Of a stretch of 64,000 bases of DNA, positions 26,292 to 51,203 are shown piece by piece. The position numbers and the translations under genes are program-made. The first letter of the stretch is position 1; every line of letters begins with the position of its first letter. Under the pieces are notes generated by a model. That model ran no database searches. It was not told where the DNA came from and worked only from the letters and a program-made list of their open reading frames with translations. The DNA is from Natronosalvus rutilus (GTDB taxonomy: Archaea > Halobacteriota > Halobacteria > Halobacteriales > Natrialbaceae), in assembly GCF_024204665.1 (NCBI RefSeq), contig NZ_CP100356.1:186001-250000 (forward strand), in the 5' to 3' direction.

Positions 26292-27187
26292 GGGTTTGTG
26301 TCTGGTGTGAACGTGATGTCGCGGTCGTACACCGCGAGGTAGTAGTACTGCTTGTCGAACTGTTCGAGCCCGGCCATTACCTGTTGGGTCGATTGTGACG
26401 TCGAAACCAACGATTCGCCGTCAGCAAGTTCGATTCGTTTGATCCCCAATACAGAATTTTTGGCGGTCGTATCTAACGGTGCACCCGAGAGTTCGAGTTT
26501 GCCAACGTTCTCGCTGCACAGTGTGGCCAGTCCTTGATCGAACGCGTCTCGAGTACACCCGAGTCGCTCACAAGTTCGTTCACGGAGCTTGGGGATTGAG
26601 AGGTACCGCTGGCGGAGGTTGACACCGGCGGTTTCCTCTAGTTCGTCGTAGAGCTCGAGAAGGATGTATTGGAAGTTCTTTGGCACGCTGTTTCGAGAGG
26701 CAACATAGTAGTCGCCAGTAAATGCGTTCCGCTGGACTCCTCCCAGTCGCTCTCCCCAATCGCCGACAACTTCGATTCCCGTTTGATTGAACGAATACAG
26801 CGAGAATTCATATTCGGCTTTGAGGAACTCGAGTAACGAATCAGTGTCCGTTGGCCCACGTTCAGCGAGTGCGTCGAGAAACGCTCCGTAGTGTGGGCTA
26901 CGAACGGCAAGAATGTCGTCGGCTTCCGACCACGTTTCGGATCGGATCGCCTCTAAGAATTGTTCACCGATCGGAGTCGTCGAGTAGGTTGGCTCCTCCT
27001 GGTCGCCATCTTCGCGGAGGAGAGCAATTCGCGTCGCCTCGAGAATCGTCTCTCGTGCTCGTCTATGCGTTATGGAGAGCGTTTCTTCGATGTCATCGGT
27101 TGTTCTTCGAGTTCCTTCACACAGGTGTGTGAGTTCAGTGAGGCGGGCCAGTGTAACGGGACGGACCGTCGCACGTTCGGATGTCAC
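26288..27187 (-). CDS. Winged-helix protein between dpdA-like and AAA+ genes
   Basis: 299 residues beginning at a GTG that overlaps the dpdA stop by 4 bp. The N-terminal third is a helix-turn-helix/winged-helix (TTDDIEETLSITHRRARETI ... TPIGEQFLEAI). The remainder has no recognised domain. In layout it resembles the 287-residue winged-helix gene at 36084-36947, which also accompanies an ATPase, so the two may be functional analogues. Resemblance to DpdG-type proteins of bacterial dpd islands is possible but not established from sequence alone. Confidence 0.65.
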   Translation of the reverse strand: MTSERATVRPVTLARLTELTHLCEGTRRTTDDIEETLSITHRRARETILEATRIALLREDGDQEEPTYSTTPIGEQFLEAIRSETWSEADDILAVRSPHYGAFLDALAERGPTDTDSLLEFLKAEYEFSLYSFNQTGIEVVGDWGERLGGVQRNAFTGDYYVASRNSVPKNFQYILLELYDELEETAGVNLRQRYLSIPKLRERTCERLGCTRDAFDQGLATLCSENVGKLELSGAPLDTTAKNSVLGIKRIELADGESLVSTSQSTQQVMAGLEQFDKQYYYLAVYDRDITFTPDTNP

Positions 27188-28445: not shown

Positions 28446-28823
28446 TCAATTAACGGACTCAAGTAACCCGCTGGAAAACATTCTTCCAATCGCTACAAGA
28501 CAAGCGTGGTAGGAAGTTTTTCGAGTTACCATCACCGTTTTTCGATCAGCGTCGTATTCAAGTATCCCCTTGGTCGCCAATTTTGGTAGATGAACTTGAA
28601 TAAGGCTGTTATACGCTGATTCGTATTCTGAAGTACTGATTTCTCGAGGAGGCCGCTCAAGTTCGACGGCCCTAATAATACGGGCAATTTGACGGACGTC
28701 GACCGTAGTACCACAATCGAACAGCGAGAGGTATGTAATCGTCAAGAGTCGACGTTGATTTCCTAACAGACGATACGTATCCGACACCGGTTGAGTCGCT
28801 TCATCTCTCTTCTCTGTTGTCAT
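28446..28823 (-). CDS. DUF7344-type winged-helix regulator
   Basis: 125 residues: DTYRLLGNQRRLLTITYLSL is the typical opening of haloarchaeal DUF7344 proteins, followed by VDVRQIARIIRAVELERPPR and the wing KLATKGILEYDADRKTVMVT. These are ArsR-like DNA-binding proteins. It lies between the two transglycosylase units on the same strand and is the obvious candidate to regulate them. The leader carries a T-run plus C/G hairpin (28838-28868) like those upstream of the TFB and tnpB-fusion genes. Confidence 0.75.
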   Translation of the reverse strand: MTTEKRDEATQPVSDTYRLLGNQRRLLTITYLSLFDCGTTVDVRQIARIIRAVELERPPREISTSEYESAYNSLIQVHLPKLATKGILEYDADRKTVMVTRKTSYHACLVAIGRMFSSGLLESVN

Positions 28824-28920: not shown

Positions 28921-29622
28921 TCAAAATTCACTCAGGTCTCTTTGCGAGGTCGGGCTACCAAGACACGCCGCTTTTACGTCATCGGATGATGTGAACTCGG
29001 CCCCCAAAGCGAGATTATCGGCGAAATTCTTCAGATAGGCTCCTTTTAACGCGACAACAATTGAACCCTGTTCTTTCGCTTGTTTGGTGCGAGCAGGGAT
29101 CGAGACAACATTGTCGAATTGCTCCGCGAGTTCTTCTTGGTTGAAAGCCACTGCCAGTGTTTCGGGTGGCAGTGAAGACACCACGTCGGGCATGTCTAAC
29201 GCTCGGTAGTAGTCGGTTCCAAGAGGGAAGAATATGAGATCGTACGTCAAAGCAGTCGCCAGTTCTCGGACTCGACGGGAAATCCCGAGAGTCTCGGAGC
29301 GGGATTCAATCTCCTTCGCCGTCATCTCCGCGAACGTGACGTTATACGGGGGGAGTTCTTCGTCCTCTTCGACGACTCCGAACCCAGCGCTGATGAAGTA
29401 CCGATTGATGGCGTGTCCGTTGGCACGGAGCGAGTCGATCGCATCACCGATGTACTGCTGTTGACGACCGGTGTAGAGTTTCCGTGCTGGGATGCTGGCT
29501 ACTCCTTCACGAGCACGGAGTGAGTCGAGACTCGACTCATCAAGTTCCGGCGCATCGTATACTGCACTATCGTTCGGATATGATTTACTGTTCGAACACT
29601 GATCGACGATGAGGATTTTCAT
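28921..29622 (-). CDS. DUF6884-type protein paired with large transglycosylase
   Basis: 233 residues. It begins MKILIVDQCSNSKSYPNDS and has IPARKLYTGRQQQYIGDAID and YFISAGFGVV, the arrangement of the DUF6884 family (normally CSxxK ... PAxxLYxS ... SAKHG). It starts 2 bp after the large transglycosylase stop, so the two are translationally linked. The family is often found beside nucleic-acid modification genes; its reaction is not known. A second, truncated relative is at 15252-15685. Confidence 0.7.
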   Translation of the reverse strand: MKILIVDQCSNSKSYPNDSAVYDAPELDESSLDSLRAREGVASIPARKLYTGRQQQYIGDAIDSLRANGHAINRYFISAGFGVVEEDEELPPYNVTFAEMTAKEIESRSETLGISRRVRELATALTYDLIFFPLGTDYYRALDMPDVVSSLPPETLAVAFNQEELAEQFDNVVSIPARTKQAKEQGSIVVALKGAYLKNFADNLALGAEFTSSDDVKAACLGSPTSQRDLSEF

Positions 29623-32490: not shown

Positions 32491-33183
32491 TTATTCACCC
32501 CGCAGTTGAAGACTCAGATGCGCACCTAACGATCCCTGCAGTTCGTCGATTTCCTTGTCGGATAGAGACGACAACTGAACCGAACCCCCAGAGATGAGGG
32601 ATCGCACGTGCTCTTCGGCTCCCGAGCCACGGAACGGTTCCATGAGTTTGTTCTCAATATTCTCTAACTCTATGACTACATTTTGACGCACCTGCTTCCG
32701 AATCGATTGTTCTTGCTCCGAAAACTGTTTATCAGTTTGATAACTCACTTCATCTAGATCCTCAATTTCCTCCTCAATTATCCGAATGCGATCCGGTGGA
32801 ATACGATTAGTTCGCTGGTTGAGTGAATTGAGTCCCTTCAGATGTGAACTCAATTTATGTTTTACCCCCTGAATCTCGCCCCGAATTCGCTGTTCTTCTT
32901 CGTCCAATGCCTCCGTTAGCCCGGTCAGTTTGTCTTCGGTTCGGTCGAATTGATTGGATTCCCACGCTGTCTTCACCTGTTCGACTTTCTGTACCGTTTC
33001 GTCACTCGGACTGAAACCCTCGATGTTGCTCTTTTTTCCACCAGACAACTCCTCAAACCTCGCCCCGAGAAGTACCGTCTTACGCATTGTCTGAACAGCG
33101 TCTTCCAGTCGCGAGGCCAGCTGCTGGTTTCGATGCTGCTCGTAGTACGCTTCGAGTTGACGTTCTAGTTCACTGATTGGCAT
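32491..33183 (-). CDS. Coiled-coil protein, third gene of ATPase operon
   Basis: 230 residues, largely helical with heptad-like Leu/Gln/Glu spacing (residues ~80-195) and no catalytic motif. Its start overlaps the end of the 970-residue ATPase gene by 14 bp, which indicates coupled translation and probably a stoichiometric complex. The position and size are like DpdI of bacterial dpd islands, but that equivalence is a guess from gene order. Confidence 0.65.
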   Translation of the reverse strand: MPISELERQLEAYYEQHRNQQLASRLEDAVQTMRKTVLLGARFEELSGGKKSNIEGFSPSDETVQKVEQVKTAWESNQFDRTEDKLTGLTEALDEEEQRIRGEIQGVKHKLSSHLKGLNSLNQRTNRIPPDRIRIIEEEIEDLDEVSYQTDKQFSEQEQSIRKQVRQNVVIELENIENKLMEPFRGSGAEEHVRSLISGGSVQLSSLSDKEIDELQGSLGAHLSLQLRGE

Positions 33184-36082
33184 ATATTTCGCTCATTTTT
33201 AAGAAGCTATCAGATTCGATTTCACTAGACCCCGTCTCTAGATCTAGGGCTAGGATTCGTTTCGTAGCTTCGTGTCCGAATATTGCGAGACCAAGAAGAT
33301 GTGCCTGTTGCTGTTTACTATTGGAGCTGGCCTGATCGAGATCTTCGTGGATCGTACAGGACTCCAGTAGGTTCTCGATCTTCTGATCAGATACCTTTGA
33401 AAAGGTAATCAGATTTTCTCGGACACCCGAATCGACGCTATCGTATGTTTTGAGCTTCTTCGTTATATCACGGACATTTTCCATATCGATCCCACGCAAC
33501 TGCTCGTTGACGAAACGAGGTGCAACATCTGCTTCTTCGCCCGCTGGTAAGTCATCCAATTTCCGGATAGTTCTGTATACCTGCAACCCCACTTCTCGGA
33601 GATGTGTATCCGTGTCAAATCGAACTTTCGCTGGAAGATCACTAAGTGCACTCTTCGTGAGACGCCCTCCGATATCGAACGGGTGAGATCCTTTAAGGAT
33701 CTCATTCAATCGAGGTACATCGACAACGTTACTGCTGATCGCGAATACGTCCCCAAACAGTGACTCGATCGGATCGATGAAATCGAAAATGTTCGTAATT
33801 CCGTCATAGGTTTCCTTGTCGGCAAAATCCTTCAGCATTTCATCTAGGTCATCGTCTATCTCAGGTCGTGTGTTGGCGGTATAGAGCGACGAAAGTCGTT
33901 TACCAGTAACTTGCTGGCTCGGATCAGATAGAATCGCCAGTACTCCGTATGCGCTCGCGACGAACTCTTCAAAAGTACTATTCCGATGACTTGTCCCGTA
34001 GAAGTATTTTGGAGCCAGATACGCGCCACGAACGTGTTCCTGCCATTGCTGAGCGTAGCCGGCGAGTTGTGATCCGTTTCGATCAAACAACTCTTTGTAA
34101 TCGGCTCGGCTCGGATCCAGATCTCGCGTGATACCGAACTTGAGTAGTTTCAGAAGCTGTGGATGGGTGAATTCCGTTGGATCGATCTGAATTTGATCTG
34201 TTTCCGCTGGTCCACCATCGGTGAAGGTGAAGGGGTGGCGTTCGCTCCCTACTAACACTTCCAAATCGCCGTCAGGAAACATCTCGAATCCATTTGTAAG
34301 TCGATCAATCGCGTCCGTTAACCCTCGTTTAATGTACACATCCACCTCTGAGGCCTTCTGATTCTGCGTGTCCGATTGCCACGTATCGATGTGCTTTCTG
34401 GCTTCATCGTAGCGCTCCTGAACCGGATCCTTTTTGTTTTCCTTTATATCGCCATTGCCGCCGCCAGATATCGCTCCCTCCGTCAACGGGATAACAAGAG
34501 TGTCAACTCCGTCGATTTCAGTTCTCGTGATATCGTACTCTTCAAAGAGTTCTGGCTCGTCGATTCCGAACGCTCTAGCGAATCGCCGATCGACAGTCAC
34601 TACGCTCTTGCCGTCCATCTCTTGCTGTGCCCCGTACCACTGTGCAAGCCGTCGAAGGGGTTCGTTTTCGTAAATGTCCTCGTTGTCAAGTACAATCGAG
34701 TTGGACAGCACGTCATCGATCTCACTCCATGCAGCAGGGACGGTCACATCTCCGTGATAGTACGCACTCAGAATCTTCGAGATCGTCTGGATGTATATTC
34801 GGGGTCGCTGCTCTTCATCGGGCAACCCTTCATATATCCGATCAATGAACGTCTCGTTGAATGGGAATACGTCCCTAAACGTTTCGTCGCAGAACGTACA
34901 CCGAGCGCAGATACTTTGATTCTTAGGTTGGCGAAGTTCACTTTTCCGATCTTCGTCGACGTACCTGACGCTGTTATCACGATTTTTTACGTAGCCGAGA
35001 AACGGTCGGGCGAAATCCACTGCCGAGTCCTCATTCAAGAAGAGGACATGATTGGAATCGCGCTTATTGGTTCGGTAGAACCGGATCCACTCACGATCCT
35101 TTGCTGTGTTCGTCTCTAGGGTGCGTGTCGATTCTTGTGTTCCTGCGATGATGAAATCCCACGTGTTCTCGGGGGAGTCCTGTTCGATGTACTCCTGTAG
35201 TCGTTGAGCATCGAGCGCCGAGACAGAGAAATCTTCGAAGACGAGAACTGGGCGTTCGTCGAGATTTTCAGCAACTTCAGCTAAAAGTGAATCCATTGTT
35301 GGTGTTCCGTAGTCCTGACGGATTGCTGTCCAGATAGCCTCATTCCAATGTTCAGCTGCGGTTTCGTCATCCACGTCCTCGAACACGTTGAGGAAGTTGT
35401 ATTGTGCTATCTCGTTGGCTTCGTCGGAGACGGTAATGAACTCAATTTTCGTTGCGAACTCTCCCCGTTGAGCTAACTTCGTGATTTTTTTCTCGATGAA
35501 GTCGATGACGTCGTCTTCTTGGTCGTTGGTCAAGTCGACTGTACTACTATCCAGATCTGCAATCGTGAGCATCGCCCCTGACGTGATACGCTTTGCGACG
35601 AGACCTCGGTGCTGTCGAACCTGTCGCCTCAGTTTCTCCAGTTGATCCCTCTCCTCTAACGTGTCCCCTCCTGAGACCCGCTCATAGAAGTCCGGGATCT
35701 CCTCAGCCATGATTGTAAGCAAATCCGCATTCTTATCGATGTGGAGGACATTCCGCCCCGCCTCTTTGAGTTCTAACGAAAGATACGCACAGAGTTCGGA
35801 TTTCCCTGTGCCGACGTTCCCGTCGATTATCGTGACGAGATTCCGTCGACGCTGCTTCAAGAACTCGGAGAGAATTTTATCTTCCTTGACTTCCCTCTCC
35901 TCTCCGCTGTGTTTCTCGAATACTGTGATCGGACGATGGGTGAACCGGAACAGATCTGGCCGATCAGACCGAACCTTCGCGACCTCACTAAACAGATCAT
36001 CAAAGAGTTCTTCATCGATTTTCTGATAGTGAGGACACAAACTCCCGTCAGGCGGTGAGACCTCTGTAATTTCAGTAGTCAT
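33170..36082 (-). CDS. 970-residue P-loop ATPase (DpdH-like?)
   Basis: Walker A GNVGTGKS at 88-95 (IIDGNVGTGKSELCAY) and a Walker B-like VLVFEDFSVSAL near residue 280. A C-x2-C-x2-C cluster (CARCTFC) sits mid-protein. The N-terminal HRPITVFEKHSGEEREV segment precedes the ATPase core. The remaining ~600 residues are helical and unrecognised. It is the middle gene of a three-gene operon (1-bp gap from the winged-helix gene, 14-bp overlap with the coiled-coil gene). The set resembles DpdG-DpdH-DpdI of bacterial 7-deazaguanine islands, but the DptF or PbeABCD ATPases of phosphorothioate systems are an alternative. Confidence 0.7.
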   Translation of the reverse strand: MTTEITEVSPPDGSLCPHYQKIDEELFDDLFSEVAKVRSDRPDLFRFTHRPITVFEKHSGEEREVKEDKILSEFLKQRRRNLVTIIDGNVGTGKSELCAYLSLELKEAGRNVLHIDKNADLLTIMAEEIPDFYERVSGGDTLEERDQLEKLRRQVRQHRGLVAKRITSGAMLTIADLDSSTVDLTNDQEDDVIDFIEKKITKLAQRGEFATKIEFITVSDEANEIAQYNFLNVFEDVDDETAAEHWNEAIWTAIRQDYGTPTMDSLLAEVAENLDERPVLVFEDFSVSALDAQRLQEYIEQDSPENTWDFIIAGTQESTRTLETNTAKDREWIRFYRTNKRDSNHVLFLNEDSAVDFARPFLGYVKNRDNSVRYVDEDRKSELRQPKNQSICARCTFCDETFRDVFPFNETFIDRIYEGLPDEEQRPRIYIQTISKILSAYYHGDVTVPAAWSEIDDVLSNSIVLDNEDIYENEPLRRLAQWYGAQQEMDGKSVVTVDRRFARAFGIDEPELFEEYDITRTEIDGVDTLVIPLTEGAISGGGNGDIKENKKDPVQERYDEARKHIDTWQSDTQNQKASEVDVYIKRGLTDAIDRLTNGFEMFPDGDLEVLVGSERHPFTFTDGGPAETDQIQIDPTEFTHPQLLKLLKFGITRDLDPSRADYKELFDRNGSQLAGYAQQWQEHVRGAYLAPKYFYGTSHRNSTFEEFVASAYGVLAILSDPSQQVTGKRLSSLYTANTRPEIDDDLDEMLKDFADKETYDGITNIFDFIDPIESLFGDVFAISSNVVDVPRLNEILKGSHPFDIGGRLTKSALSDLPAKVRFDTDTHLREVGLQVYRTIRKLDDLPAGEEADVAPRFVNEQLRGIDMENVRDITKKLKTYDSVDSGVRENLITFSKVSDQKIENLLESCTIHEDLDQASSNSKQQQAHLLGLAIFGHEATKRILALDLETGSSEIESDSFLKMSEIYANQ

Positions 36083-36083
36083 G

Positions 36084-36947
36084 TTAAGTTATCCTTAGAT
36101 AGTTTTTCGCCTTCGAGATCCCACTGTGGGACGGAATTCCCGGCAGTTCGAATCCTGAAGGATCGCCACGTTTGGTGACTTTCAGCTTTCCGTCCGAAAC
36201 CAATTCGTACAACGTCCGGGCGAAAGGAGCGGGGAGCGCATTCTCTGAGGAAGTCGGGATTCGTAGACAATTGTCCTCAAGCCATTCCAGATATTCAGAA
36301 AATCCAACTCCGTCGCTTTCGCCCACTTCTTCGGCTGCGAGCGTGATAGTCCGCTCGATGAGGTTTGGATCGAACCGAACGATGAATGCGCTTCGTCGGC
36401 CGGATTTGTAGCCACGAATAAGACCCAGATATTCGGCTTGATTTGTCCAGTGAGAAAATTTCGTACTATTCAATTTCATTCTCCCTTTCTGGGATTGCGG
36501 TTCGTATCCAACGTCGACGTGCCAGTTGTCAATTTTCCTAATAAGGCCCTCATCGGTCTGTACGAAGCGATTTGTCCCTTCTTTCAACAAATATTCGAGA
36601 TTCAGCAGTACTGAGGACTGCAATCCCCACTGCTGCGGTGAGCACTCCGCTGCAACTGAGTTTAAGATGTGAAGACGGAACTGGAGATTAAAATCCACCG
36701 CATCGAACGCCAGAGGGGTTAACGTATATTCAAATTCAGATTTCCCTCCTAAGTTAAAGATCCGAAATCCTTTCGTGATTAACTCGACCGTGTCATCTTC
36801 GACACAAAGGATGTCTTTCAACTCCGATTCAGTCTTCGAACCGTTTTGAATCGCACGATAGGCGACTTCCAATAGCGTGAGATTTTGCACCTCGTTCAAC
36901 GCGTACGCCCCTGTCGGCATCGACACATTAGTTTCCCCACTGCTCAT
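36084..36947 (-). CDS. Winged-helix protein, first gene of ATPase operon (DpdG-like?)
   Basis: 287 residues. Two winged-helix-like regions are visible: TLLEVAYRAIQNGSKTESEL ... YTLTPLAF at the N-terminus and LIRKIDNWHVDVG ... EYLGLIRGYKSGRRSAFIV in the middle. The C-terminal part has APFARTLYELVSDGKLKVTK, another wing-like segment. It starts an operon whose next gene begins 1 bp after its stop. Divergent promoters with the 37099 gene occupy 36948-37098. Sequence-specific or modified-base binding is plausible but unproven. Confidence 0.65.
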   Translation of the reverse strand: MSSGETNVSMPTGAYALNEVQNLTLLEVAYRAIQNGSKTESELKDILCVEDDTVELITKGFRIFNLGGKSEFEYTLTPLAFDAVDFNLQFRLHILNSVAAECSPQQWGLQSSVLLNLEYLLKEGTNRFVQTDEGLIRKIDNWHVDVGYEPQSQKGRMKLNSTKFSHWTNQAEYLGLIRGYKSGRRSAFIVRFDPNLIERTITLAAEEVGESDGVGFSEYLEWLEDNCLRIPTSSENALPAPFARTLYELVSDGKLKVTKRGDPSGFELPGIPSHSGISKAKNYLRIT

Positions 36948-37098
36948 ATGATCCGACTCGCTACCGCGATCGATCGGGGGCGGTGGACAATATCTATCGA
37001 CAATCCGGATCCGTCAGCCATATCTTCTCTATATTAGACCATCAACTTATGTTTATTGCTTAATACTATGACGATACTATTGTCAAACAAACATCAAG

Positions 37099-37824
37099 AT
37101 GGGGACAAATATATGCTCTGCCACACCCAACGATTTGGATGTGTCTGAATCGGCATCCTTCCCAATCAGTGATTCTCTGACTGTACTGGATGGGGAGACG
37201 ATCTACCGGACTGACGAATGGCATAAAGCAGCCGTGCTCTATACCCATGAGGATAAAAATTCGGATTTCTCTGATCCCGAACTCGCAATTTATCTTTGGC
37301 ACAAACGGGATGGGAAGTGGGGACGAAAGCAAAAATACTCGATCCGAACCGCTGACGGCTGGAAGGAAGACCGGGAAGTGTTGGAACAGTTATTGAACGC
37401 ATTCGACGGAGAGATCATTTCGGGCGAATTCACCGATCCAAATGCTGAGCTTCCGGTGAGTGATTACTACAATGTCTCCACTGGCATAACCGTCTTCAAG
37501 ACGAACCGGTGGTGGAAAGCGGGAGTTGTAATTGATGCGAAAGGTGAGTACGAGACGACCGAGGTCATCCTCTACGTCTGGCAACGATCGGACGACGAGT
37601 GGAAGGTTCGCCAGAAATACGCGGTGAAGCGCCCAGGCGACTGGAAAGATGATCTGGAAGCACTTTCACCGTTGCTTGACGAACTCGAATCTGGAGCGGA
37701 TGTAACTTCTGATGAGGTTGCTAATAACGACACCCCTGCCGCCGATAGGCAGATCGACCGCGAACGCCTTCAAAAGGCGATGGAGCGTCGGCATCTCACG
37801 CGTGAATTGGCCGATGCGAACTAG
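37099..37824 (+). CDS. Protein with duplicated Trp-rich domain
   Basis: 241 residues. Two internal repeats align: IYRTDEWHKAAVLYTHEDKN ... IYLWHKRDGKWGRKQKYSIR (about 35-105) and VFKTNRWWKAGVVIDAKGEY ... LYVWQRSDDEWKVRQKYAVK (about 130-195). A short basic tail (RERLQKAMERRHLTREL) follows. No family is recognised. It is the only plus-strand gene inside the 25-51 kb block and is divergent from the winged-helix/ATPase operon. Promoter-like AT-rich sequence lies about 30 bp upstream. It may be a partner or regulator of the surrounding defence genes. Confidence 0.65.
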   Translation: MGTNICSATPNDLDVSESASFPISDSLTVLDGETIYRTDEWHKAAVLYTHEDKNSDFSDPELAIYLWHKRDGKWGRKQKYSIRTADGWKEDREVLEQLLNAFDGEIISGEFTDPNAELPVSDYYNVSTGITVFKTNRWWKAGVVIDAKGEYETTEVILYVWQRSDDEWKVRQKYAVKRPGDWKDDLEALSPLLDELESGADVTSDEVANNDTPAADRQIDRERLQKAMERRHLTRELADAN

Positions 37825-37845
37825 GGGCGGTCACTACCGGGAACC

Positions 37846-38778
37846 CTATTTCTCTCCTGTGGCTTGATCCAACCAACTGGCTAACCGTCTTTCCACAGGA
37901 TTCGACACCTCCAGCACATTGAGATACGATCGGGCGTCGTCCATCGCGGCCATCTCCTGTCGAAAATGCGGATCGAATAACCCTTCTTTTCTACGAGCGA
38001 GGCCATTGAAGTAGGTGGCAATCTCTCGTCCCTGATGATAATCCAATTCCACTCGACGCCGAAGCCATTTGGCGAATTCGATTCGTTGGTCTTCATTAAG
38101 GAGGCGCGTTCCTTGTTGCACATCGGTCATAAAGATATCCGAGAACGTTCTCCATATCGGTAGATACGGCGCTTCTGGAAGTATCTCGAAAAATTTGGGG
38201 AGTGAACTGACTCGTCTCCCAGTCACTTCCTCAAACAGTAATGCATTCTCTTGGACGAATATGTTTAGTGAGTGCTTCACAGGAAATTGATAGCCAAACT
38301 CTTCGTATCTCGTCTCGAATGCCTCGTAGACCCGATAATAGTTCAACTCTCGTTTGAGGAAATCCATTTCTCGAAGCGGCCGGATCGTGCCACTCATCTG
38401 GAAATCCTTCGACCCCGCACCGACGATCATGCGAGCACTACTTCGGGTGTAGGAATTGATGATCGAGCTGAGACTAAAGAGGGGAAGTTTGTCCTCATAA
38501 TATTGGTCGCTGATAGCAACGAGGTCACGTTTCGGTGGAATCTCGACGTCATCCATATGAACGAACTCTGGTGCTTCGAGTTCGAATTGATTCGTCTCCC
38601 ACTGGTCGACCTTCTGCCAGGATTTAGGACAGGTCATCCGATCCCAACCCAGTCGAAACAGAGCAGGGTATTTGCGGAGGGCGCATAGTTTTTCTCGCTT
38701 CTCCGACCGATACAGTTCGTCATAGATGAAATACACTCCTGGTTCCTGCAATGCTCGATTCAGAGTTTTCCATTTCAT
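37846..38778 (-). CDS. 310-residue protein downstream of the DEAH helicase
   Basis: No catalytic motif is recognised. Visible features are a GYQFPVKHSLNIFVQENALL segment, SSARMIVGAGSKDFQMSG and many aromatic residues. I looked for the HxKxxxxD signature of phospholipase D (DpdK or DrmC) and did not find it. It starts 18 bp after the helicase stop, so it shares its transcript and likely its function. Confidence 0.6.
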   Translation of the reverse strand: MKWKTLNRALQEPGVYFIYDELYRSEKREKLCALRKYPALFRLGWDRMTCPKSWQKVDQWETNQFELEAPEFVHMDDVEIPPKRDLVAISDQYYEDKLPLFSLSSIINSYTRSSARMIVGAGSKDFQMSGTIRPLREMDFLKRELNYYRVYEAFETRYEEFGYQFPVKHSLNIFVQENALLFEEVTGRRVSSLPKFFEILPEAPYLPIWRTFSDIFMTDVQQGTRLLNEDQRIEFAKWLRRRVELDYHQGREIATYFNGLARRKEGLFDPHFRQEMAAMDDARSYLNVLEVSNPVERRLASWLDQATGEK

Positions 38779-38796
38779 TGGCTATCTTGTCAATAT

Positions 38797-41700
38797 TTAT
38801 TGTTGCGCTTCCAATAGAGCGAGGAGCATCTTCCGGTGGAGGAGGTCGTTTTTAAGGTAGAAACCGGGCGTCCGTTCTAAGAGTAGACACTGGTTACAGA
38901 ATTGATTACATTCATCACAGTTGCCAACTTCTCGCACCCGCTTTTCGAGTTCGTTCGATTCAATGATCGCCTGTGAGACTTGCCACGAGATGCCGTTTCC
39001 ACCCTCTCGCCCGTCGGTCACGTAGAAATCCAGCGACGAATCTGTCTTCACGGCCTTCACATCAAAGTCCCCAAGGTCACATTGGGCGATTACCGCGATC
39101 GTTTTAGCGAATGCTTGTTCCAGACTCACCATGGCTTGTGACCACGATGCCGTGGGTTCTGTACTGGCAAATTGTTGGTATCGTTCTTCGATCGGTTCCA
39201 AATCAAACTCCAATTTGATCCCATTCGTCCGCATTTGTTGACCTACTGGTGCATACTGCTCAGAACTTGACTCTTCAATCAGGTCGTCAAGATCCATATC
39301 GTCGAAATTCGCCTCGTCTTCATTTTCAACATCGATAACTCCCTGTGACTCGACCAATTGCAGGTCACTCCCGCGATTGTGGGCGCGTTCGAAGGCTGGC
39401 ACAAACGAAAGCGTTTCAAACTGCGATGAGATCAGCGAACAGTCCAACCCGAATAGCGTCGCCTCCGTGACTTCACGATCCGCGGTCGATCGAATCTCCT
39501 CGAGATACGTGGTCACGATGGGATACGTGCGATAGTCTTGTTCGAAAGGAGCGGCCGACCGGCACTGCACGGATCCGATTCGATGGACGGCTGTACGTTC
39601 CAACTCCTCTCCACACAGCGGACATATCCCCCGGCTTTCTTTGTATGCTCCGTATGGGCGCTCACATTCTTCGTTTGTGCAGAGCCCGACTCTCGTTAAT
39701 CGTTCTCGGGCTTTGACGTCATCGACTATGTATTTCGTGCCCAAATAGACAACCTCACCTCCCCGATCGTTTTCTGGACCTGGAAACATCTCGAAGAGAC
39801 GGCCACTCCCCTCGAATTGGATATCAGCTTGTCTGCTGCTTCGGTAATTGACTGGGAATTGGCCTCCAAAGGATCGGTAGTTCGCGAGATAGCCTAATTC
39901 CTTCAACCAGAGATCGAGTCGATTGAGATTGGAGGAGAGGGTTTCCGCGGATTTTCCCGATACATCTAATCCCTCCATCTCGCCAAACGTCCGTTCACCA
40001 CGCTGCTTCATGCTGTATCGACTGTCGGTGCTGAACACTTCGTCAAAAATGGGGCTTGCTTCTGGACCGAACGCTTCCACAACCCAGTCTTTTACATCGG
40101 GGCGTTCTTCCTTGATGTATCTGCGAAGCGTAACGAGTCGTTTCAGAACGTTAGTGCTGAAATTTCTTGGGCTGCTCGTCGATTCCGTCAGTTGATACAC
40201 TTTATCGAGGACTGACTTGCCCCCTTGATTCCGCGCCAGATATCCAACTGCTTCTGTGACGATTTGCCCAGCGAGAAGTTCGTCGAACTCAACTGGATTC
40301 GGAACTCTCACCGGATCATACGAGGAGAAAAAAGCATCCAGGTTCGCGAAGTAATGCGTATCTACTGGGTTCGATGATCGTACTGCGGTTGTAACGAGTG
40401 ACGCACTCCCCTGAGATCGGCCAGTCCGACCGCTTCGCTGTACGTAGTTCGTCAGTGTAGGCGGGATTCCGACCTGTGTCACCGTATCGAGCGTTCCGAT
40501 GTCGACACCCAATTCCATCGTTGGGGTCGCACTGACGATGTTTATCTCTGGATCCGGTTGCCGAAATCCCTCTTCGATTGATCCTCTGAGTGCAGCTGGC
40601 ATATCACCCTTGTGTTGACCGACGACGACCGGCTCCAATTCCTCGTTTTCCGTGAATGGTGAGGAAATATCGTGCCCCCAGTGATCGACCGCGTAGTCCC
40701 ATCCAGTATCAATATCGGCATATCCTTTTCCGACGTATTCTCCCTCCCTAACCTCGAACCGGTCGTATACATCGGTCGCCTGCCGGCACTTGGGACAGTT
40801 GATACCGATGTCGGTATCCATCTGCTTTGCAGGCATCGCCGTATAACAGTTTAGACAGTACGCGACGGAAGGTACCAGACGAAGTCGGGACTCGTCGTTC
40901 TGCAACTCTCGCTTGAACACACCACTTCCAATCTCCCCCTTGAAAACGTCAACCTGGTCTAAAACCGCCTGCTGTTTTTCAAGATACGCCTTCGTCGTCT
41001 CCACGGGCGCATTTCCGGATTGATTTTGGAGTTCTTCGTGAACCTCGTCGTCGGTTCGGGCGCGAATAGCGTTCACTTCATTGAGGTCGTCCAATATCCT
41101 CGGGAGAGACTGCTGAACAAATTCTTCTTCGAATCGGTAGTTCCGGTGGATTCTCGATTCCAGTCGTTCGAACGACCATCCTTGAATCTTTCTCCCGTCT
41201 CGAGTAAATTTGTATCCTGGATCCTGCGCGAAGGTACGGTAGACCACGTGAGCAAGCGCCAGTTCCCTACCCGAATACGACTGGAAGATCGTCTCCGGTG
41301 TCACGAGTGCTGCATTTAGAAGATGGTTACAATTGTGAAGTGACGCGTTATTCCGAATCGAACTCAACAAGTCATTCAAATAATCCTCTACATTGGAACC
41401 ATCTGGTGCATTCGAGATGAGGGGTTCGTAGTAGACCTCTCGAAGTTCGTCACGGATATCGTAGAACAACTGGGTTGTCTCCTTGGTACCCTTGTTCTCC
41501 ACGAGGTGTTTCACGTACAGCGTCTCCGCCATCAGGAGGTACTCCTGGTCTCGGATGTTCCTTGCAACGCTTTCGGAGGTACTTCGCGAGTCCGAGAATA
41601 CAAGCGTTTTCTTTGAGGGTGCTAACCGGCAAAGTTCGGTAAGCATGAACGTGAGCAGCGTCGACGTTGGGACGTTAATGTCCTGCGTGTTATGCGTTTT

Positions 41701-43548
41701 TTCACAACCCGGACAGAGGGATGCAGTTGGATGCTCGAGTGGTCGACCCCCATCTTCCTCATTTTCAACGACGTAGGGATAGTGGCATTCTCGACAGAAT
41801 TCCAGTTCCGGCAGATTCGAGTGACATGACGGGCACGCCTTCTGTCTTCTAACAGCACTACAATCTCGACACCAATATGCATTCGACGGCGGTTGTAAGA
41901 AGACGTGGTACTTATCGGTCAATAATCCGGCTAACCGGCCGAACAACAGCAGGGTATTGAGTACTAACTCAGGATCCTGCGACTCGTCCAACTCCGACCG
42001 AACATCTGCAAGTAACCCATCGTATCGTCTAAATCTGACCTCTCCAGTGTCCCCTTCGAGTTTCGACGCAAGTTCGGCAACCTCTGGGACGTGTCGTTCG
42101 ATATGCTGGCGCCATCGGGCCGTGAGACCATTTGAATCCAATAGTGTCTCCGTCACCAGATCCAGTGTCTCTTGATTCTCGATTACGTCCAGCCCTGTTT
42201 CGGCCTGTGGGTACGACTCTTTTAAGGAGTCCACTTCCTCTAAAATGGGGCTGACGAGCCACGATCGAACCTCTGATGGGATCGATATAGCGTTCGATCG
42301 TATCGTCAGAAGATTGACCGCCGCCAGCGTTGCCCGTGCGCTGGCCATTTTAGGAAACTTTGCCTCAAACGCATTCACTGTGTACTCTCCTTTAGAGACG
42401 ACGTAGAGCGTCGCCACGATTTCGTCTAACGTGCATGGATGAATTTTAGTAAAGTCAGCCGTTCCACCTGATGGAAGCGGCTCGGGAGTGAATCCAACCG
42501 AGTTGATTTCTTCCATTGGGGTTCTTGTCAATTTGCTAGCAAGCTCGGGAGGGTTCTTAACGGTTGCAGATACCATTGAGATTTGCGGATCGCTATCCTC
42601 GTAAAAGTGCTTCAATCGTTGTGATAGAAGTGAAATTGCGGCACCTTTGATCCCACTCCATACGTGTGCCTCATCGTATACAATGTGCTGAAGCGGGTGC
42701 TCTCCTGGATTTTCGCCGATGATGTTCCGCGAGTCACGGCGGTCGTTCACGTAGAGGAAATCGAGCGCTTCTGGATTCGTAATCAGAATATCGACACTCT
42801 GACTCTGGTTATCTGCTCGGATGCCATTCCGAGTAACTCTTATCCACGAATACTCCTCGGTATCGGTACCGACTCGGTAGTCGTCGAACACACGGAGTTT
42901 TTCCTTGGTTCGTGGACAGACAAGCCCACGAATCGGGGATCCTGGCTCAACTTCGTTTGGTTGATCCCCAACAGTGTTGTCGGTATCACCATCCCAGATT
43001 CCAATTTTGATCTTCTCTCCGGCCGGCCGATCTCGATTGACTGCATCAAGATACTTGATAAATCTGTTCAGTTGGTCGACCTCAAGCGTCTTCATTGGAT
43101 AGATGATGATGCCTTTGAGCCCATCTTTGTCGATTTGAATACAATCGTTGAGTAATGGGATAAAGAACGATTCCGTCTTCCCGGTCGCTGTTGGTACCGC
43201 GAGGATATTGTCATTCTCGTCTCCTTCGATCGCCTTGATCATCTCTGCCTGGTGTTGATATAGCGGGAGTGTGGGATCGCCATCGAATAGAACATTAGCG
43301 ACCGCATTGATAGCCGATGGATCGTAGTTCAACTCGGATAGGAATGCTTCAGCGGATTGAGTATGTGATTTCGGGGTTCGAACGTACTCGACGTATGGCC
43401 CTTTCTGCTCAACCAGTTGATCGTCGACAAAGGCTTTTGCATTTCCGAACTGGTCGAATTGGTTCAGCTTTGTGAGAGAGCGGTTCCACCAGATAATTTC
43501 GTTTGCACGGTCAAGGGCGCCGTCTAACGTTTGACGAGGTGAATCCAT
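38797..43548 (-). CDS. DEAH-box helicase with cysteine clusters and DUF1998-like end (DpdJ/DrmA-like)
   Basis: 1583 residues. Helicase motifs: Q-rich LYQHQAEMI, motif I VPTATGKTES (118-127), Ia IIIYPMKTLEVDQLNRF, DEAH box IVYDEAHVWSG, SAT (SMVSAT), then motifs V/VI SATPTMELGVDIGTLD and NYVQRSGRTGRSQG. There are several zinc clusters: CRDC...CPSC...CREC, CLNC...CPKC, CTNEEC...CPLC. The C-terminus has CDECNQFCNQCLLLERTPGF, typical of DUF1998/MrfA-type helicases. Such helicases are motor subunits in DISARM (DrmA) and in dpd islands (DpdJ). It leads a two-gene transcript with the 310-residue protein. Confidence 0.85.
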   Translation of the reverse strand: MDSPRQTLDGALDRANEIIWWNRSLTKLNQFDQFGNAKAFVDDQLVEQKGPYVEYVRTPKSHTQSAEAFLSELNYDPSAINAVANVLFDGDPTLPLYQHQAEMIKAIEGDENDNILAVPTATGKTESFFIPLLNDCIQIDKDGLKGIIIYPMKTLEVDQLNRFIKYLDAVNRDRPAGEKIKIGIWDGDTDNTVGDQPNEVEPGSPIRGLVCPRTKEKLRVFDDYRVGTDTEEYSWIRVTRNGIRADNQSQSVDILITNPEALDFLYVNDRRDSRNIIGENPGEHPLQHIVYDEAHVWSGIKGAAISLLSQRLKHFYEDSDPQISMVSATVKNPPELASKLTRTPMEEINSVGFTPEPLPSGGTADFTKIHPCTLDEIVATLYVVSKGEYTVNAFEAKFPKMASARATLAAVNLLTIRSNAISIPSEVRSWLVSPILEEVDSLKESYPQAETGLDVIENQETLDLVTETLLDSNGLTARWRQHIERHVPEVAELASKLEGDTGEVRFRRYDGLLADVRSELDESQDPELVLNTLLLFGRLAGLLTDKYHVFLQPPSNAYWCRDCSAVRRQKACPSCHSNLPELEFCRECHYPYVVENEEDGGRPLEHPTASLCPGCEKTHNTQDINVPTSTLLTFMLTELCRLAPSKKTLVFSDSRSTSESVARNIRDQEYLLMAETLYVKHLVENKGTKETTQLFYDIRDELREVYYEPLISNAPDGSNVEDYLNDLLSSIRNNASLHNCNHLLNAALVTPETIFQSYSGRELALAHVVYRTFAQDPGYKFTRDGRKIQGWSFERLESRIHRNYRFEEEFVQQSLPRILDDLNEVNAIRARTDDEVHEELQNQSGNAPVETTKAYLEKQQAVLDQVDVFKGEIGSGVFKRELQNDESRLRLVPSVAYCLNCYTAMPAKQMDTDIGINCPKCRQATDVYDRFEVREGEYVGKGYADIDTGWDYAVDHWGHDISSPFTENEELEPVVVGQHKGDMPAALRGSIEEGFRQPDPEINIVSATPTMELGVDIGTLDTVTQVGIPPTLTNYVQRSGRTGRSQGSASLVTTAVRSSNPVDTHYFANLDAFFSSYDPVRVPNPVEFDELLAGQIVTEAVGYLARNQGGKSVLDKVYQLTESTSSPRNFSTNVLKRLVTLRRYIKEERPDVKDWVVEAFGPEASPIFDEVFSTDSRYSMKQRGERTFGEMEGLDVSGKSAETLSSNLNRLDLWLKELGYLANYRSFGGQFPVNYRSSRQADIQFEGSGRLFEMFPGPENDRGGEVVYLGTKYIVDDVKARERLTRVGLCTNEECERPYGAYKESRGICPLCGEELERTAVHRIGSVQCRSAAPFEQDYRTYPIVTTYLEEIRSTADREVTEATLFGLDCSLISSQFETLSFVPAFERAHNRGSDLQLVESQGVIDVENEDEANFDDMDLDDLIEESSSEQYAPVGQQMRTNGIKLEFDLEPIEERYQQFASTEPTASWSQAMVSLEQAFAKTIAVIAQCDLGDFDVKAVKTDSSLDFYVTDGREGGNGISWQVSQAIIESNELEKRVREVGNCDECNQFCNQCLLLERTPGFYLKNDLLHRKMLLALLEAQQ

Positions 43549-44803: not shown

Positions 44804-46198
44804 TCACAGGATCCGACCCGGGGAATCCGGATATTGGACTATCTTGATTTCCTCGTTGGGTGGCGACACTGTTTCCTGGTCGAGTTCGTCAACGAACAGT
44901 ACCCCTTTGACGTTCACCGAGTCGAGGACGTTCTCCGCCCTCTCGACGTACTCACTTGTCGACTGGTGCTTAACGAACGCCATATATTCAAGTAACTCAC
45001 GCAGGCCAGTCGCCACATAATCGATACTTTGCGTGTATTTTACCTCGCCGATGAATACCTGAGCGAGTTCCTGTTCACCATCCGACTTTTCCTTATATTG
45101 TTCCAGTACAATATCGGGACGTCCTCCCCACAAAACGTCTCTTCCACCGTGATCCAGCATGTCAGAAGATAGTGACTTCCTCCGACAGAGTACTTCGTTC
45201 ATCCGATAGAGATACCCATCTGGTTTGACATTTTCTGCATCGATCGACTCTTCGAACGTGAGATTCTCTCCCGTCGCATCGTGATATAGGGCGAATCGTG
45301 AGTCTCGATGTTCCCACGTGGCGATTGTCGAGGTATCGTTCTGGTTATCGGTCAACACCCGATACTCGACGCCTTCGTAGGCGTCCAACACCCGGAACAC
45401 CCAGTATAGTTCAAAGAGAATCTCGGCTTTATCAGGGGCAATAAGCGTGTGGTCCAGAATGTCCCGAGCTTCAACACTATCCAGTTCGTGACTCATTAAC
45501 TGACGATATCGATCCAGAAGTATCGCTGCCTCTCGATAGAATTTAGACCGTGACCGCTTGACCGACTCAATAGTTCGTTTCGAGATCTCCGTCTCATCGA
45601 CCTTAATCCGCTGCAAATAGATATTCTTCTGGTAGATTCGATCAAACATATCCGCGGTGGATTCTTGTTTGCGACCGGTAGGACTGAAATCCGACTGAAC
45701 CCACGCCTCGAGCCACTCGTAACCATTAGGGTTGTTGCGGGCATATGCCAAATCCTCTGTGACAGTGTCATAGACGACGCTCAATAATCGCTTCAACACC
45801 AGATTCTCGTCGATATCATAGTGAACCTTTGGACGGTCACACACAAAAATCGGCTCGTCAAGTCGACCTACTCGGGCACGACGTTTCACCGTCTCAGACC
45901 AATTTAGCTGCCCACGAACCTCACCATGATGCTCGGACGACTGTGGCGACGTGGAGGTCTTCATTCGGCGGATACGCGCCTCTAACTTTCGCATAAAATC
46001 CACTACTCCCACGTCATTTCCGCCACCTTCGGCATCAGTCAGCACGAAATGAATCCGGAGCAGTGTTTCGATGTCGTCGATGTCGAGCTCCTTATGTGCC
46101 GATCCGATTACTCGGTCGAATCGGACTCCCTTCCGGAGATAGGTATGGAAGCTGTCGGCAATCTCTTCGAGCAGCCTCTCTACAGTTGCTTTGGCCAT
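44804..46198 (-). CDS. mcrC: McrC-like PD-(D/E)XK nuclease subunit
   Basis: About 464 residues from the ATG at 46198, which lies 5 bp after the McrB stop; an in-frame upstream ATG at 46261 would overlap McrB. The nuclease core is GRPDIVLEQY ... FIGEVKYTQS (D ... E-x-K) followed by GLRELLEYMAFVKH. The N-terminal half is helical with LDEPIFVCDRPKVHYDIDEN. McrC proteins supply the nuclease for an AAA+ GTPase McrB ring; gene order here fits that. Similarity to DUF2357/McrC-like families is likely, though overall sequence is divergent. Confidence 0.75.
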   Translation of the reverse strand: MAKATVERLLEEIADSFHTYLRKGVRFDRVIGSAHKELDIDDIETLLRIHFVLTDAEGGGNDVGVVDFMRKLEARIRRMKTSTSPQSSEHHGEVRGQLNWSETVKRRARVGRLDEPIFVCDRPKVHYDIDENLVLKRLLSVVYDTVTEDLAYARNNPNGYEWLEAWVQSDFSPTGRKQESTADMFDRIYQKNIYLQRIKVDETEISKRTIESVKRSRSKFYREAAILLDRYRQLMSHELDSVEARDILDHTLIAPDKAEILFELYWVFRVLDAYEGVEYRVLTDNQNDTSTIATWEHRDSRFALYHDATGENLTFEESIDAENVKPDGYLYRMNEVLCRRKSLSSDMLDHGGRDVLWGGRPDIVLEQYKEKSDGEQELAQVFIGEVKYTQSIDYVATGLRELLEYMAFVKHQSTSEYVERAENVLDSVNVKGVLFVDELDQETVSPPNEEIKIVQYPDSPGRIL

Positions 46199-46203
46199 CC
46201 TGT

Positions 46204-48423
46204 TTATCCCTCGTTGTTTTGCTGGAGATCCATCTGGAAGAAATCGCGTGCGACCGTCCACAACTCTTCCGTATCTCCACTCACAATTGATTCTAATCGC
46301 CCGAGTAATCTTTCCAACTCATTTCGTCGCAACCCCTCCAGTTGCGGAAACACATACATAATGAGTGGAGAGACGTAATCTGCAGTGTCCCGGGACGAAG
46401 CCGTCGCCACGTGTGTGTAGATGTCCTCGATAATTGCCGGTCCAATCACCCTCTCTTCATTAATTGCACGCCAGATACGACCGACTAGTTCGTAATGGTC
46501 TTCAACCTCGGGTATATCGCTGGTTTCCGACCACACACTAACGTACTCTCCCACCAACGCCTGCAGCGCCGCATCGTCACCATCCTCTTGTGGCGGGAGT
46601 TCGGGAACTCCGACCGGAACGAACGCCCACCGACGCATGAACGCGTAACTCATCTCGTAGAGTGAGGTTTTATCGAGCGTGTTCATTGTCGCGAGCATCT
46701 GCCAATCATTTGGAATGTAGAATCGACTAGGCCCGATCTCCTGATCCGACCGCGATGCATCCAGAATTTGTATCGGCTCACCATCCGATCCATTAAACGG
46801 GAGTGTGACAGTCTCGCCGGTCAGCGCCGAAAATAGCGATCCGAAGGCTTTGTCAATATCTGCTCGGTTAAGTTCGTCGATTATTAGCCACTCGTTCGTA
46901 GGGGCCCCATCTTTCTCGTTCTTGAATCGATCTAATACTACTCCCGGTTTGAATTCTAGAGTATTCTCGGAAGTTGTCTGGTATCCACCCACGGTGTCGA
47001 ACGTCGACCAATCTGCCGATGCCGTGACGAGTTCGTACTTCTCGTTAACCGTCCCCTCACATATCTGCTTGGCCAATTTCGTCTTTCCCGTTCCAGGTGG
47101 GCCGAAGAGGAGAACGTGATTCCCGGACTCCAGCGCTTGGTATATTCGAGAGCGAATGCGTTCCCACTCCTCGTCCGGGAAATGCAGGTTCTTTCGCTCA
47201 ACTCTGATCTCCGATTCCGGGACTGACAAGTCCTCCTCGTAGTCCGCAAACGTTGTTTTCTCGCTCAACTTCAGAATACGCTCGAACTCCTGTTCAGTGA
47301 GTTCTGTGACGACAAAACTATTCCCGGAATTGACGAGTCTGCTGGATTCTAGTTCGCCATCAGATTGTATTTCACTCCAACTCGCCCCATCTAACGATTT
47401 GTCCCACTGAAGCGTGATCCCCTCAATCGTTTCCTCACTCTCATTTCTAGCTTCTTCGTGTACTCCTTCTGCAACGTGGCCTCGACCCACAATCTGCCTC
47501 GTTGGCGAGATCTGATACACTAGAACCTCATCGCCGGAACTAGCGTTCCGATACGCCGTCAGGTTCCTACGGTCACCTCCTTTCTCGTTCGTTAGACTGT
47601 AGAACGTTTGTTGACCTTCTCGATGCCAGTTTGTCGCTTCGGAATTCACCCAAAAGTAGCGCTTTGTATCCTCGCCTCCTATCTCCGGGTCACTCTCCGA
47701 ATCAACCCGGGACAACAGATCATCCAGTGAAAGCAGTTCCTCCCAACTCCAGATCATCGTCTGGACATGAAGCATCGAGGCATCCTCCACCCGTCCAATG
47801 AGTTGTTTTCGGATTTGCTCGCAGGCCTCGTTCAATTGCCGATACTGGCTCTTGTTGAAACCTTGTCGAACCGTGTATCCCGCAAACTCGTCGAAAAACT
47901 CCCGCATTTCCGTCCATTTATAGTGAACGTGCCGATCTGGATGAACGAACATCAGCAGGCACGTTGCGAGCGCGAGAAGAGAACCTGGGGCCGTTTCAAT
48001 GGCATCATAGTGCTCATGAAAAGTTTCGAGCCTCTCCACGATATCCTCACTGGGATCAAAAAAGAACGAGAGTATCTCGGCTGTTACAGTTGGATTATCC
48101 CGAGAGATTTCTTTGAAGTCCCTCCACGCAATTCCGCCGTTGGCACCGCCACCAAGCATATACACCGGAATCCGACTGTCAATACTCACTGGCTCATTGA
48201 GAACGGCAAGTAATTGCTCAATGTCTTCTGAATCTAATTCCGTAATTTCGAACTCATCTAAAAATTCGGTTTGTATATACTCGTGATAGTCCCACTTCCA
48301 CGTTTCCCAACCTACGGATGTGTCCGCCTCTTGCTTGTATCCTCCCTCGTTCCACACGTCTTCGAACCGTGTGAGCAGTTTGTCAATCTTTTTAAACCCA
48401 ATCACGTCATCGGATCCACTCAT
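46204..48423 (-). CDS. mcrB: McrB-like AAA+ GTPase with internal EVE-like domain
   Basis: 739 residues in three parts. The N-terminal ~235 residues are helical with no family call. Residues ~255-375 (RYFWVNSEATNWHREGQQTF, then SSGDEVLVYQISPTRQIVGR, GHVAEG) match the EVE/YTH-like base-reader fold. The AAA+ core has Walker A GPPGTGKT (441-448), Walker B WLIIDELNRAD, and the McrB hallmark MNTLDKTSLYEMSYAFMRRW. EVE-McrB fusions recognise modified bases in DNA and activate the McrC nuclease. It heads the operon with the McrC-like gene. With preQ0 genes close by, a deazaguanine-modified base is a reasonable candidate ligand (inference). Confidence 0.85.
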   Translation of the reverse strand: MSGSDDVIGFKKIDKLLTRFEDVWNEGGYKQEADTSVGWETWKWDYHEYIQTEFLDEFEITELDSEDIEQLLAVLNEPVSIDSRIPVYMLGGGANGGIAWRDFKEISRDNPTVTAEILSFFFDPSEDIVERLETFHEHYDAIETAPGSLLALATCLLMFVHPDRHVHYKWTEMREFFDEFAGYTVRQGFNKSQYRQLNEACEQIRKQLIGRVEDASMLHVQTMIWSWEELLSLDDLLSRVDSESDPEIGGEDTKRYFWVNSEATNWHREGQQTFYSLTNEKGGDRRNLTAYRNASSGDEVLVYQISPTRQIVGRGHVAEGVHEEARNESEETIEGITLQWDKSLDGASWSEIQSDGELESSRLVNSGNSFVVTELTEQEFERILKLSEKTTFADYEEDLSVPESEIRVERKNLHFPDEEWERIRSRIYQALESGNHVLLFGPPGTGKTKLAKQICEGTVNEKYELVTASADWSTFDTVGGYQTTSENTLEFKPGVVLDRFKNEKDGAPTNEWLIIDELNRADIDKAFGSLFSALTGETVTLPFNGSDGEPIQILDASRSDQEIGPSRFYIPNDWQMLATMNTLDKTSLYEMSYAFMRRWAFVPVGVPELPPQEDGDDAALQALVGEYVSVWSETSDIPEVEDHYELVGRIWRAINEERVIGPAIIEDIYTHVATASSRDTADYVSPLIMYVFPQLEGLRRNELERLLGRLESIVSGDTEELWTVARDFFQMDLQQNNEG

Positions 48424-49793: not shown

Positions 49794-49938
49794 GAGTATC
49801 AACTGCCGAACGCCCTACTCGATCAGGGTTCTCTCCCAGCGCCTCAAGTAGCATACGCGTGGCGCGTTGGGCTTTCTGCCGGGTAATACCGGATGACTCG
49901 CTGTTCTCTGTATTCGGCTGATGCTGTTGTCTCGTCAT
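49786..49938 (-). pseudogene. folE: GTP cyclohydrolase I (FolE) N-terminal stub
   Basis: ATG at 49938 overlaps the queE stop by 4 bp and opens a 50-codon frame: MTRQQHQPNTENSESSGITR followed by QKAQRATRMLLEALGENPDR, the amphipathic opening helix and GENPDR turn of FolE. Where EGLxxTPxR should follow, the frame runs into VGRSAVDTHE and stops inside the queC start. About 75 per cent of a normal FolE is missing, including all catalytic zinc ligands. It looks like an internal deletion that joined the folE start to queC. Confidence 0.6.
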
Positions 49939-51172: not shown

Positions 51173-51193
51173 ACTTGGAGCATACTTGGAGAG

Positions 51194-51203
51194 CATATAA
51201 GCT
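51194..51203 (-). promoter_or_regulatory. queD: TATA box of the que operon
   Basis: AGCTTATATG on the minus strand. Between it and the ATG at 51172 lies a tandem CTCCAAGTATG repeat that could be an operator or chance. Confidence 0.35.

Follow-up and report, generated by a model that had tools for sequence, protein, structure and literature searches.

A single-helicase module combining Dpd- and BRIGADE-like proteins, predicted to form the restriction arm of a haloarchaeal 7-deazaguanine DNA-modification island

In the haloarchaeon Natronosalvus rutilus, a stretch of 64,000 nucleotides (nt) from a 340-kb contig (NZ_CP100356.1, positions 186,001 to 250,000; hereafter the window) contains a block of five genes, all on the minus strand, that encode a YprA-family helicase of 1583 amino acids (aa), a 310-aa protein, a 287-aa DpdG-like protein, a 970-aa DpdH-like ATPase and a 230-aa protein predicted to be helical or coiled-coil (Table 1). 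All five open reading frames, with their sizes, are present as claimed in an earlier annotation made from the letters alone (the sequence-only reading), and their spacing is operon-like, with gaps of 18 nt between the helicase and 310-aa genes and of 1 nt between the 287-aa and 970-aa genes, and an overlap of 14 nt between the 970-aa and 230-aa genes. Within a defence island of the Dpd/BRIGADE kind, in which DNA is modified with 7-deazaguanine, the block probably acts as the restriction (effector) arm; it represents a single-helicase mix of Dpd and BRIGADE that has not been described before.

A search with the 287-aa protein recovered the module in 29 of the 391 haloarchaeal genomes examined. 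The order helicase, 310-aa, 287-aa, 970-aa and 230-aa protein is kept on a single strand in all 28 of the other module genomes, even though their proteins are roughly 22–49 % identical to those of the window, and this conservation makes the block more than a chance arrangement. Salinibaculum sp. KK48, which was found separately from the 29, carries a further close relative of the module, and none of the viral contigs searched carry it. In one genome (G361), the module occurs twice, with identical scores, at opposite ends of one contig, probably representing overlapping ends of a circular assembly. Within the window, the 310-aa and 287-aa genes are separated by a gene on the opposite strand for a 241-aa protein, which the sequence-only reading had overlooked, an arrangement that does not recur in the relatives examined; a homologue of this protein adjoins the helicase in Salinibaculum KK48, and another lies about 14 kb or less from the helicase on a plasmid of Natrinema SYSU A 869. 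The 241-aa protein is perhaps a passenger.

The sequence-only reading had likened the sizes and order of these genes to the DpdG-H-I-J set of bacterial dpd islands, and profile comparison upheld this likeness for DpdG and DpdH, but not for DpdI, nor for DpdK or DISARM DrmA. The 970-aa protein aligns with bacterial DpdH at 99.2 % over 835 columns (hhalign), is found in the window by a DpdH hidden Markov model (HMM) at 1.9e-10 and belongs to a set of module ATPases that are matched by the PADLOC DpdH models at up to 7.6e-10. Its Walker A (GNVGTGKS at 88) and Walker B (VLVFED at 279) motifs, together with a three-cysteine cluster (C392/C395/C398), are invariant in the family, and by sequence the protein is a DpdH-like ATPase of the AAA+/STAND type. 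The 287-aa protein aligns with DpdG at 96.6 % over 227 columns. Column-shuffled controls gave no more than 0.5 % for these two comparisons, no more than 0.6 % for four module comparisons and no more than 1.4 % for the comparison of a DUF6884 protein (see below) with DpdC. The gene order, in turn, is J-x-G-H-I rather than the G-H-I-J-K of Dpd, and the helicase resembles DpdJ at the superfamily level only, being nearer to DruE and the ARMADA and BRIGADE helicases.

Structural modelling adds a lead on the 287-aa protein. The AlphaFold2 model (predicted local distance difference test, pLDDT, 87) contains three winged-helix-like units and aligns along its whole length with SspB (Z 8.0, root-mean-square deviation 6.8, 229 residues aligned) and, in part, with BrxA (Z 7.1, 176 aligned). 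Since Z scores near 8 are borderline, the similarity in fold is a lead rather than a result, and comparison of the protein with the SspB/BrxA/DndG family at the sequence level gave no match. The DpdG-like protein is thus predicted to bind DNA through three winged helices in an SspB/BrxA-like architecture. SspB and BrxA are bi- or tripartite winged-helix DNA-recognition subunits that act with an ATPase (PMC12839542, PMC10853773), and the placement of the 287-aa protein beside a P-loop ATPase is also reminiscent of Ssp (SspB-SspC), BREX (BrxA-BrxC) and DndG, although that likeness is borderline and confined to the fold, and those systems use other modification chemistry. A search of solved structures for sequence relatives of the 310-, 970- and 287-aa families returned none that were significant.

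The 1583-aa protein contains DEAD, Helicase_C and MZB/DUF1998 domains and ends 28 aa past the MZB domain, indicating that no nuclease domain is fused there. Its PADLOC scores are 155 bits for DruE, 74 for DpdJ and 54 for DrmA, and a DpdJ profile finds it in the window at 6.9e-15. In a tree of 71 rows, made with a quick method and model and with long branches that leave the deeper joins unsure, the module helicases group with those of BRIGADE Type II and ARMADA (Shimodaira–Hasegawa-like approximate likelihood ratio test, 98), while DpdJ and a second haloarchaeal helicase (F5) fall outside; a subclade with support of 99 unites the window with Natrinema hispanicum, Natronobiforma cellulositropha and Salinibaculum KK48. 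On these grounds, the protein is a YprA-family superfamily 2 helicase with a fused zinc domain, kin to the ARMADA/BRIGADE helicases and outside the DpdJ clade. An origin from DISARM DrmA, to which the sequence-only reading had likened the C-terminus, was rejected on the low DrmA score and on the fusion of MZB/DUF1998 to the helicase; DISARM has a separate DrmA and DrmB plus a phospholipase D (PLD) nuclease, DrmC, whereas no PLD profile matched in the window.

Table 1. Features of the window, in order of position (TGT, guanine transglycosylase)
Feature	Coordinates	Strand	Evidence or remarks
nucA, 395 aa, putative PD-(D/E)xK nuclease	22558-23745	+	motif PDVVGFTPANRVFAIEVK; orthologues
nucB, 402 aa, putative PD-(D/E)xK nuclease	23871-25079	+	motif PDVLGLAPDRSVIAIEVK; nucA paralogue
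BrxC/BrxD-like ATPase, 385 aa, part of modification cassette	25134-26291	-	PF10923 59.6 bits
299-aa protein	26288-27187	-	no family match; between TGT and BrxD-like genes in related cassettes too
Second TGT-like protein, 346 aa	27184-28224	-	
DUF7344 small protein, possible regulator	28446-28823	-	
DUF6884 protein, DpdC-like, predicted converter of incorporated base	28921-29622	-	hhalign 96 %, HMM 4.1e-8; DpdC reference set picked by position beside DpdA and its own weak DUF6884/YaaA match
DpdA, DNA 7-deazaguanine transglycosylase, 734 aa	29625-31829	-	NF041059 274.7 bits (curated cut-off 200 bits)
Predicted helical/coiled-coil protein, 230 aa	32491-33183	-	DpdI position
DpdH-like ATPase, 970 aa	33170-36082	-	
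DpdG-like protein, 287 aa	36084-36947	-	
241-aa protein, perhaps a passenger	37099-37824	+	two similar repeats of about 70 aa
310-aa protein	37846-38778	-	
YprA-family helicase, 1583 aa	38797-43548	-	RecA1 with DEAH at residue 292; zinc-binding CxxC clusters 560-615; RecA2 about 970-1080; C-terminal MZB/DUF1998
QueC, QueE, QueD, supply of the preQ0 precursor	49095-51196	-	sequence reading; homology across module loci

The two remaining proteins of the block resemble proteins of BRIGADE Type II operons, the 230-aa one weakly. As the sequence-only reading had said, the 310-aa protein is unrecognized and has no PLD motif: its family gave no significant match in Pfam, NCBIfam or PADLOC scans, the HxKxxxxD motif occurs in 0 of 29 members, and neither a nuclease motif nor a Walker A was seen. 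Its candidacy as a DpdK/PLD nuclease was rejected on that absence and on an hhalign value of 0.6 % against the PLD family. The AlphaFold2 model (pLDDT 86) offers a weak hint of a P-loop-NTPase-like N-terminal fold lacking Walker A; the best Foldseek match has an E of 1.3e-3, VIA Z is at most 8, and the matches, equally weak as a hint, are mostly to P-loop/AAA-like domains on residues 1–152. Aligned with a protein of about 287 aa from BRIGADE Type II operons, the family scores 95.2 %, and by this sequence comparison the 310-aa protein belongs to a family without annotation and is a distant homologue of the BRIGADE protein. The 230-aa family matches a 247-aa protein of BRIGADE Type II more weakly (65.7 %), a score that coiled-coil similarity can inflate. 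From these matches, the BRIGADE II operons hold the same order of 310-like, G, H and 230-like genes, upstream of the helicases.

Beside the block, on its downstream side, lies a modification cassette that includes DpdA, a DpdC-like protein and a second TGT, and queC and QueE are also annotated as neighbours of DpdA. The 299-aa protein of the cassette was considered as a second DpdG and rejected (1.2 %). Two putative nucleases, nucA and nucB, are assigned at motif level only. Orthologues of nucA at 60 % identity or more occur in nine genomes, nine of which have DpdA, against a background of 55 of 391 (p=1.2e-8, phylogeny not corrected), and from their confinement to DpdA genomes nucA is assigned to the DpdA cassette. 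An McrB-like AAA ATPase (739 aa) and, in the position of McrC, a protein of 485 aa form a probable type IV restriction pair (44804-48423) that separates the module from QueCDE. A GmrSD-type (DUF262/DUF1524) nuclease is encoded at 52235-54370, and the module of N. hispanicum, like that of Salinibaculum KK48, has a different GmrSD protein at its flank. Whole or partial TnpB-like genes flank the island (9303-10547, 15574-16155, 20536-22092 and 58294-59175), and two orc1/cdc6-like genes within a span of less than 8 kb (11164-12366 and 17544-18731) suggest that the 340-kb contig is a secondary replicon.

Every one of the 29 module genomes has a dedicated TGT, which is of the F7 type in 26 and a DpdA of the 734-aa type (DpdA734) in three. 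The F7 TGT lies within the fetched context in 24 genomes and elsewhere in the genome in the other two (G361 and G268). F7 genomes usually also have a GHKL ATPase (F8), a second YprA helicase that matches DpdJ (100 %) and a small PLD protein that matches DpdK (98.9 %), a context in agreement with the published account of BRIGADE Type I (PMC12458937). In such Type I-style islands (L166:259-13538), the GHKL protein, an HSP90/gyrase-like ATPase, is the neighbour of the TGTs, one of which carries a fused DUF5591 domain; the ATPase and the fused domain are both parts of a DNA-modification cassette. The window, N. hispanicum, N. cellulositropha and Salinibaculum KK48 are without F7 and the F5-type helicase and have DpdA734 in their place, near the module in the window and KK48 and on a separate contig in N. 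cellulositropha. Elsewhere in the KK48 genome (G391, C1:2645255-2663765) are a second DpdA and a YprA helicase of about 1867 aa, so that the two effector types may coexist in a single cell.

The cassettes and effectors have not always travelled together. The modification cassettes of N. aibiense and N. hispanicum are 91–97 % identical in the four proteins compared, whereas their effectors share only 21–30 % identity over partial stretches; N. aibiense encodes a PLD protein, two helicases of about 1830 aa and a BRIGADE II G-H-I set, and N. hispanicum the single-helicase module. Another genome (G290) has a cassette that is 93–97 % identical and a BRIGADE II-like helicase that shares only 36 % identity with its N. 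aibiense counterpart. The window's cassette is 66–85 % identical to these cassettes, and its module only 34–49 % identical to that of N. hispanicum. Near-identical cassettes beside unlike effectors point to recombination between the two, and, because gene content differs, to more than a faster evolution of the effectors. Thus, on sequence grounds, effector modules appear to be swappable on one modification cassette. Genes for csa3-like CARF regulators adjoin BRIGADE II islands (L092:19142-19801, L100:28876-29532), hinting at control of these islands by nucleotide signals.

Of the systems already described, BRIGADE (Bell et al. 2025, PMC12458937) is similar in being haloarchaeal and in combining an ARMADA-like YprA helicase and a 7-deazaguanine cluster with a PLD or PD-(D/E)xK nuclease; a further mark of BRIGADE is a helicase with a BrxA-like helical insert and a coiled-coil finger. 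The window shares the ARMADA-like helicase, a cluster for 7-deazaguanine biosynthesis and insertion and, at motif level, PD-(D/E)xK nucleases nearby; the same module stands beside a DpdJ-DpdK-like pair in BRIGADE Type I-style loci, and the same modification cassette occurs in Type II-style loci. The window differs in pairing an effector of the Type I style with a cassette of the Type II style, and no PLD nuclease was found in it. With bacterial Dpd (DpdA-K), it shares homologues of DpdA, DpdG and DpdH, a DpdC-like protein and a YprA-family helicase; however, this helicase lies outside the DpdJ clade, the gene order is different, and a BrxC/D-like ATPase and a second TGT are present. Profiles for DpdB, DpdD, DpdE and DpdK found nothing in the window, and the sole DpdF match fell on the helicase core of the 1583-aa protein, which is not a DpdF. 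Since each of BRIGADE Type I, BRIGADE Type II and canonical Dpd has tested defining features that are lacking here, the system is best classed as a single-helicase BRIGADE-like variant rather than any of the three.

The foremost alternative is a helicase defence module, Druantia- or ARMADA-like and independent of modification, linked to the DpdA cassette only by their place in one defence island. It would account for a helicase whose family and architecture are those of Druantia/ARMADA, whose best PADLOC match is DruE and which groups away from DpdJ, and for the distance of about 35 kb between module and DpdA in N. hispanicum. We consider it unlikely, as a dedicated TGT accompanies the module in every genome that has it and the DpdG- and DpdH-like partners are of modification-linked systems. 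The module also differs from Druantia/ARMADA in having no fused C-terminal nuclease, methyltransferase or BrxHII; scans detected no ARMADA methyltransferase among the module proteins and no DruH among these or the eight proteins scanned for it, and the helicase has none of the C-terminal PLD domains sought for Druantia III. Less probable still is a type IV-like effector directed against DNA that carries 7-deazaguanine, for instance the modified genomes of haloarchaeal viruses. Two reports describe 7-deazaguanines in phage DNA and DpdA in some archaeal viruses (PMC6884629, PMC8651126), and the McrBC-like and GmrSD proteins nearby belong to families of modification-dependent nucleases, yet the island has its own DpdA, whose mark would expose the host to such an effector. 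A link to phosphorothioate modification (Dnd/Pbe/Ssp), at which the sequence-only reading had hinted through Dpt/Pbe, is scarcely credible. That hint predicts, at the fold level, the whole-length SspB match of the 287-aa model, and this borderline similarity to SspB and BrxA is what survives of it; its dnd/Pbe coupling is largely refuted by distribution, as 28 of the 29 module genomes, among them that of the window, lack dndC and the other has it far from the module, and PbeA (a PLD/Res helicase), PbeB and PbeD (66 and 152 aa; PMC6459918) are unlike the module proteins. A housekeeping DNA-repair helicase cluster of the MrfAB kind shares a YprA core and MZB domain with the block, but is just as implausible given the patchy distribution (29 of 391), the defence-island location with DpdA and the lack of an MrfB-like exonuclease in module protein scans.

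The preferred interpretation of the block as the restriction arm of a 7-deazaguanine island is itself opposed by several observations. The five genes encode no nuclease, nucA follows the module less closely than it does the DpdA cassette, and Salinibaculum KK48 has no nucA. Coupling of module and cassette looks looser in N. hispanicum, given the distance noted above. BRIGADE usually has two YprA helicases, with Type I adding a Dpd-branch one and Type II having two that are ARMADA-like (PMC12458937); unlike most BRIGADE, the window's genome has one full-length helicase of these kinds. Finally, equivalence of the 230-aa protein with DpdI is without sequence support, as profile comparison and an HMM search of the window gave nothing and the match is by position only.

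If the block is the restriction arm, QueCDE would produce preQ0, which DpdA, with the second TGT and a BrxD-like ATPase as helpers, would swap for guanine in host DNA, after which the DpdC-like protein may convert the incorporated base. The three-winged-helix protein would survey DNA jointly with the AAA+ ATPase, and the two would assemble where it is unmarked, with the coiled-coil and 310-aa proteins as putative scaffolds, and the assembled complex would load the YprA helicase for translocation and unwinding. The unwound DNA would then be exposed to a PD-(D/E)xK nuclease (nucA/nucB), in place of the PLD nuclease of relatives. The window's lineage has a single helicase against two in relatives, and its modification cassette is common to islands with other effectors. 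It is conceivable, though on balance doubtful, that the DpdG-DpdH pair (287 and 970 aa) corresponds, on the 7-deazaguanine side, to the SspB-SspC, BrxA-BrxC and DndG-containing cores, all derived from a single ancestral mark reader, a three-winged-helix protein with an ATPase, that plugs onto varied modification cassettes and helicase-nuclease effectors; the window's lineage would then be a BRIGADE I-type core re-paired with a BRIGADE II-type cassette, its motor cut to one helicase.

The literature searched holds no description of the function of DpdG, DpdH or DpdI, and the presence of DpdG- and DpdH-like proteins, with an additional 310-aa family, in haloarchaeal effector modules offers a minimal single-helicase system in which it may be tested. 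The pairing of near-identical cassettes with unlike effectors suggests that a single DNA mark is respected by several effector modules. If true, the link between DpdG and SspB, BrxA and DndG would unify self-marking defence across 7-deazaguanine, sulphur and methylation.

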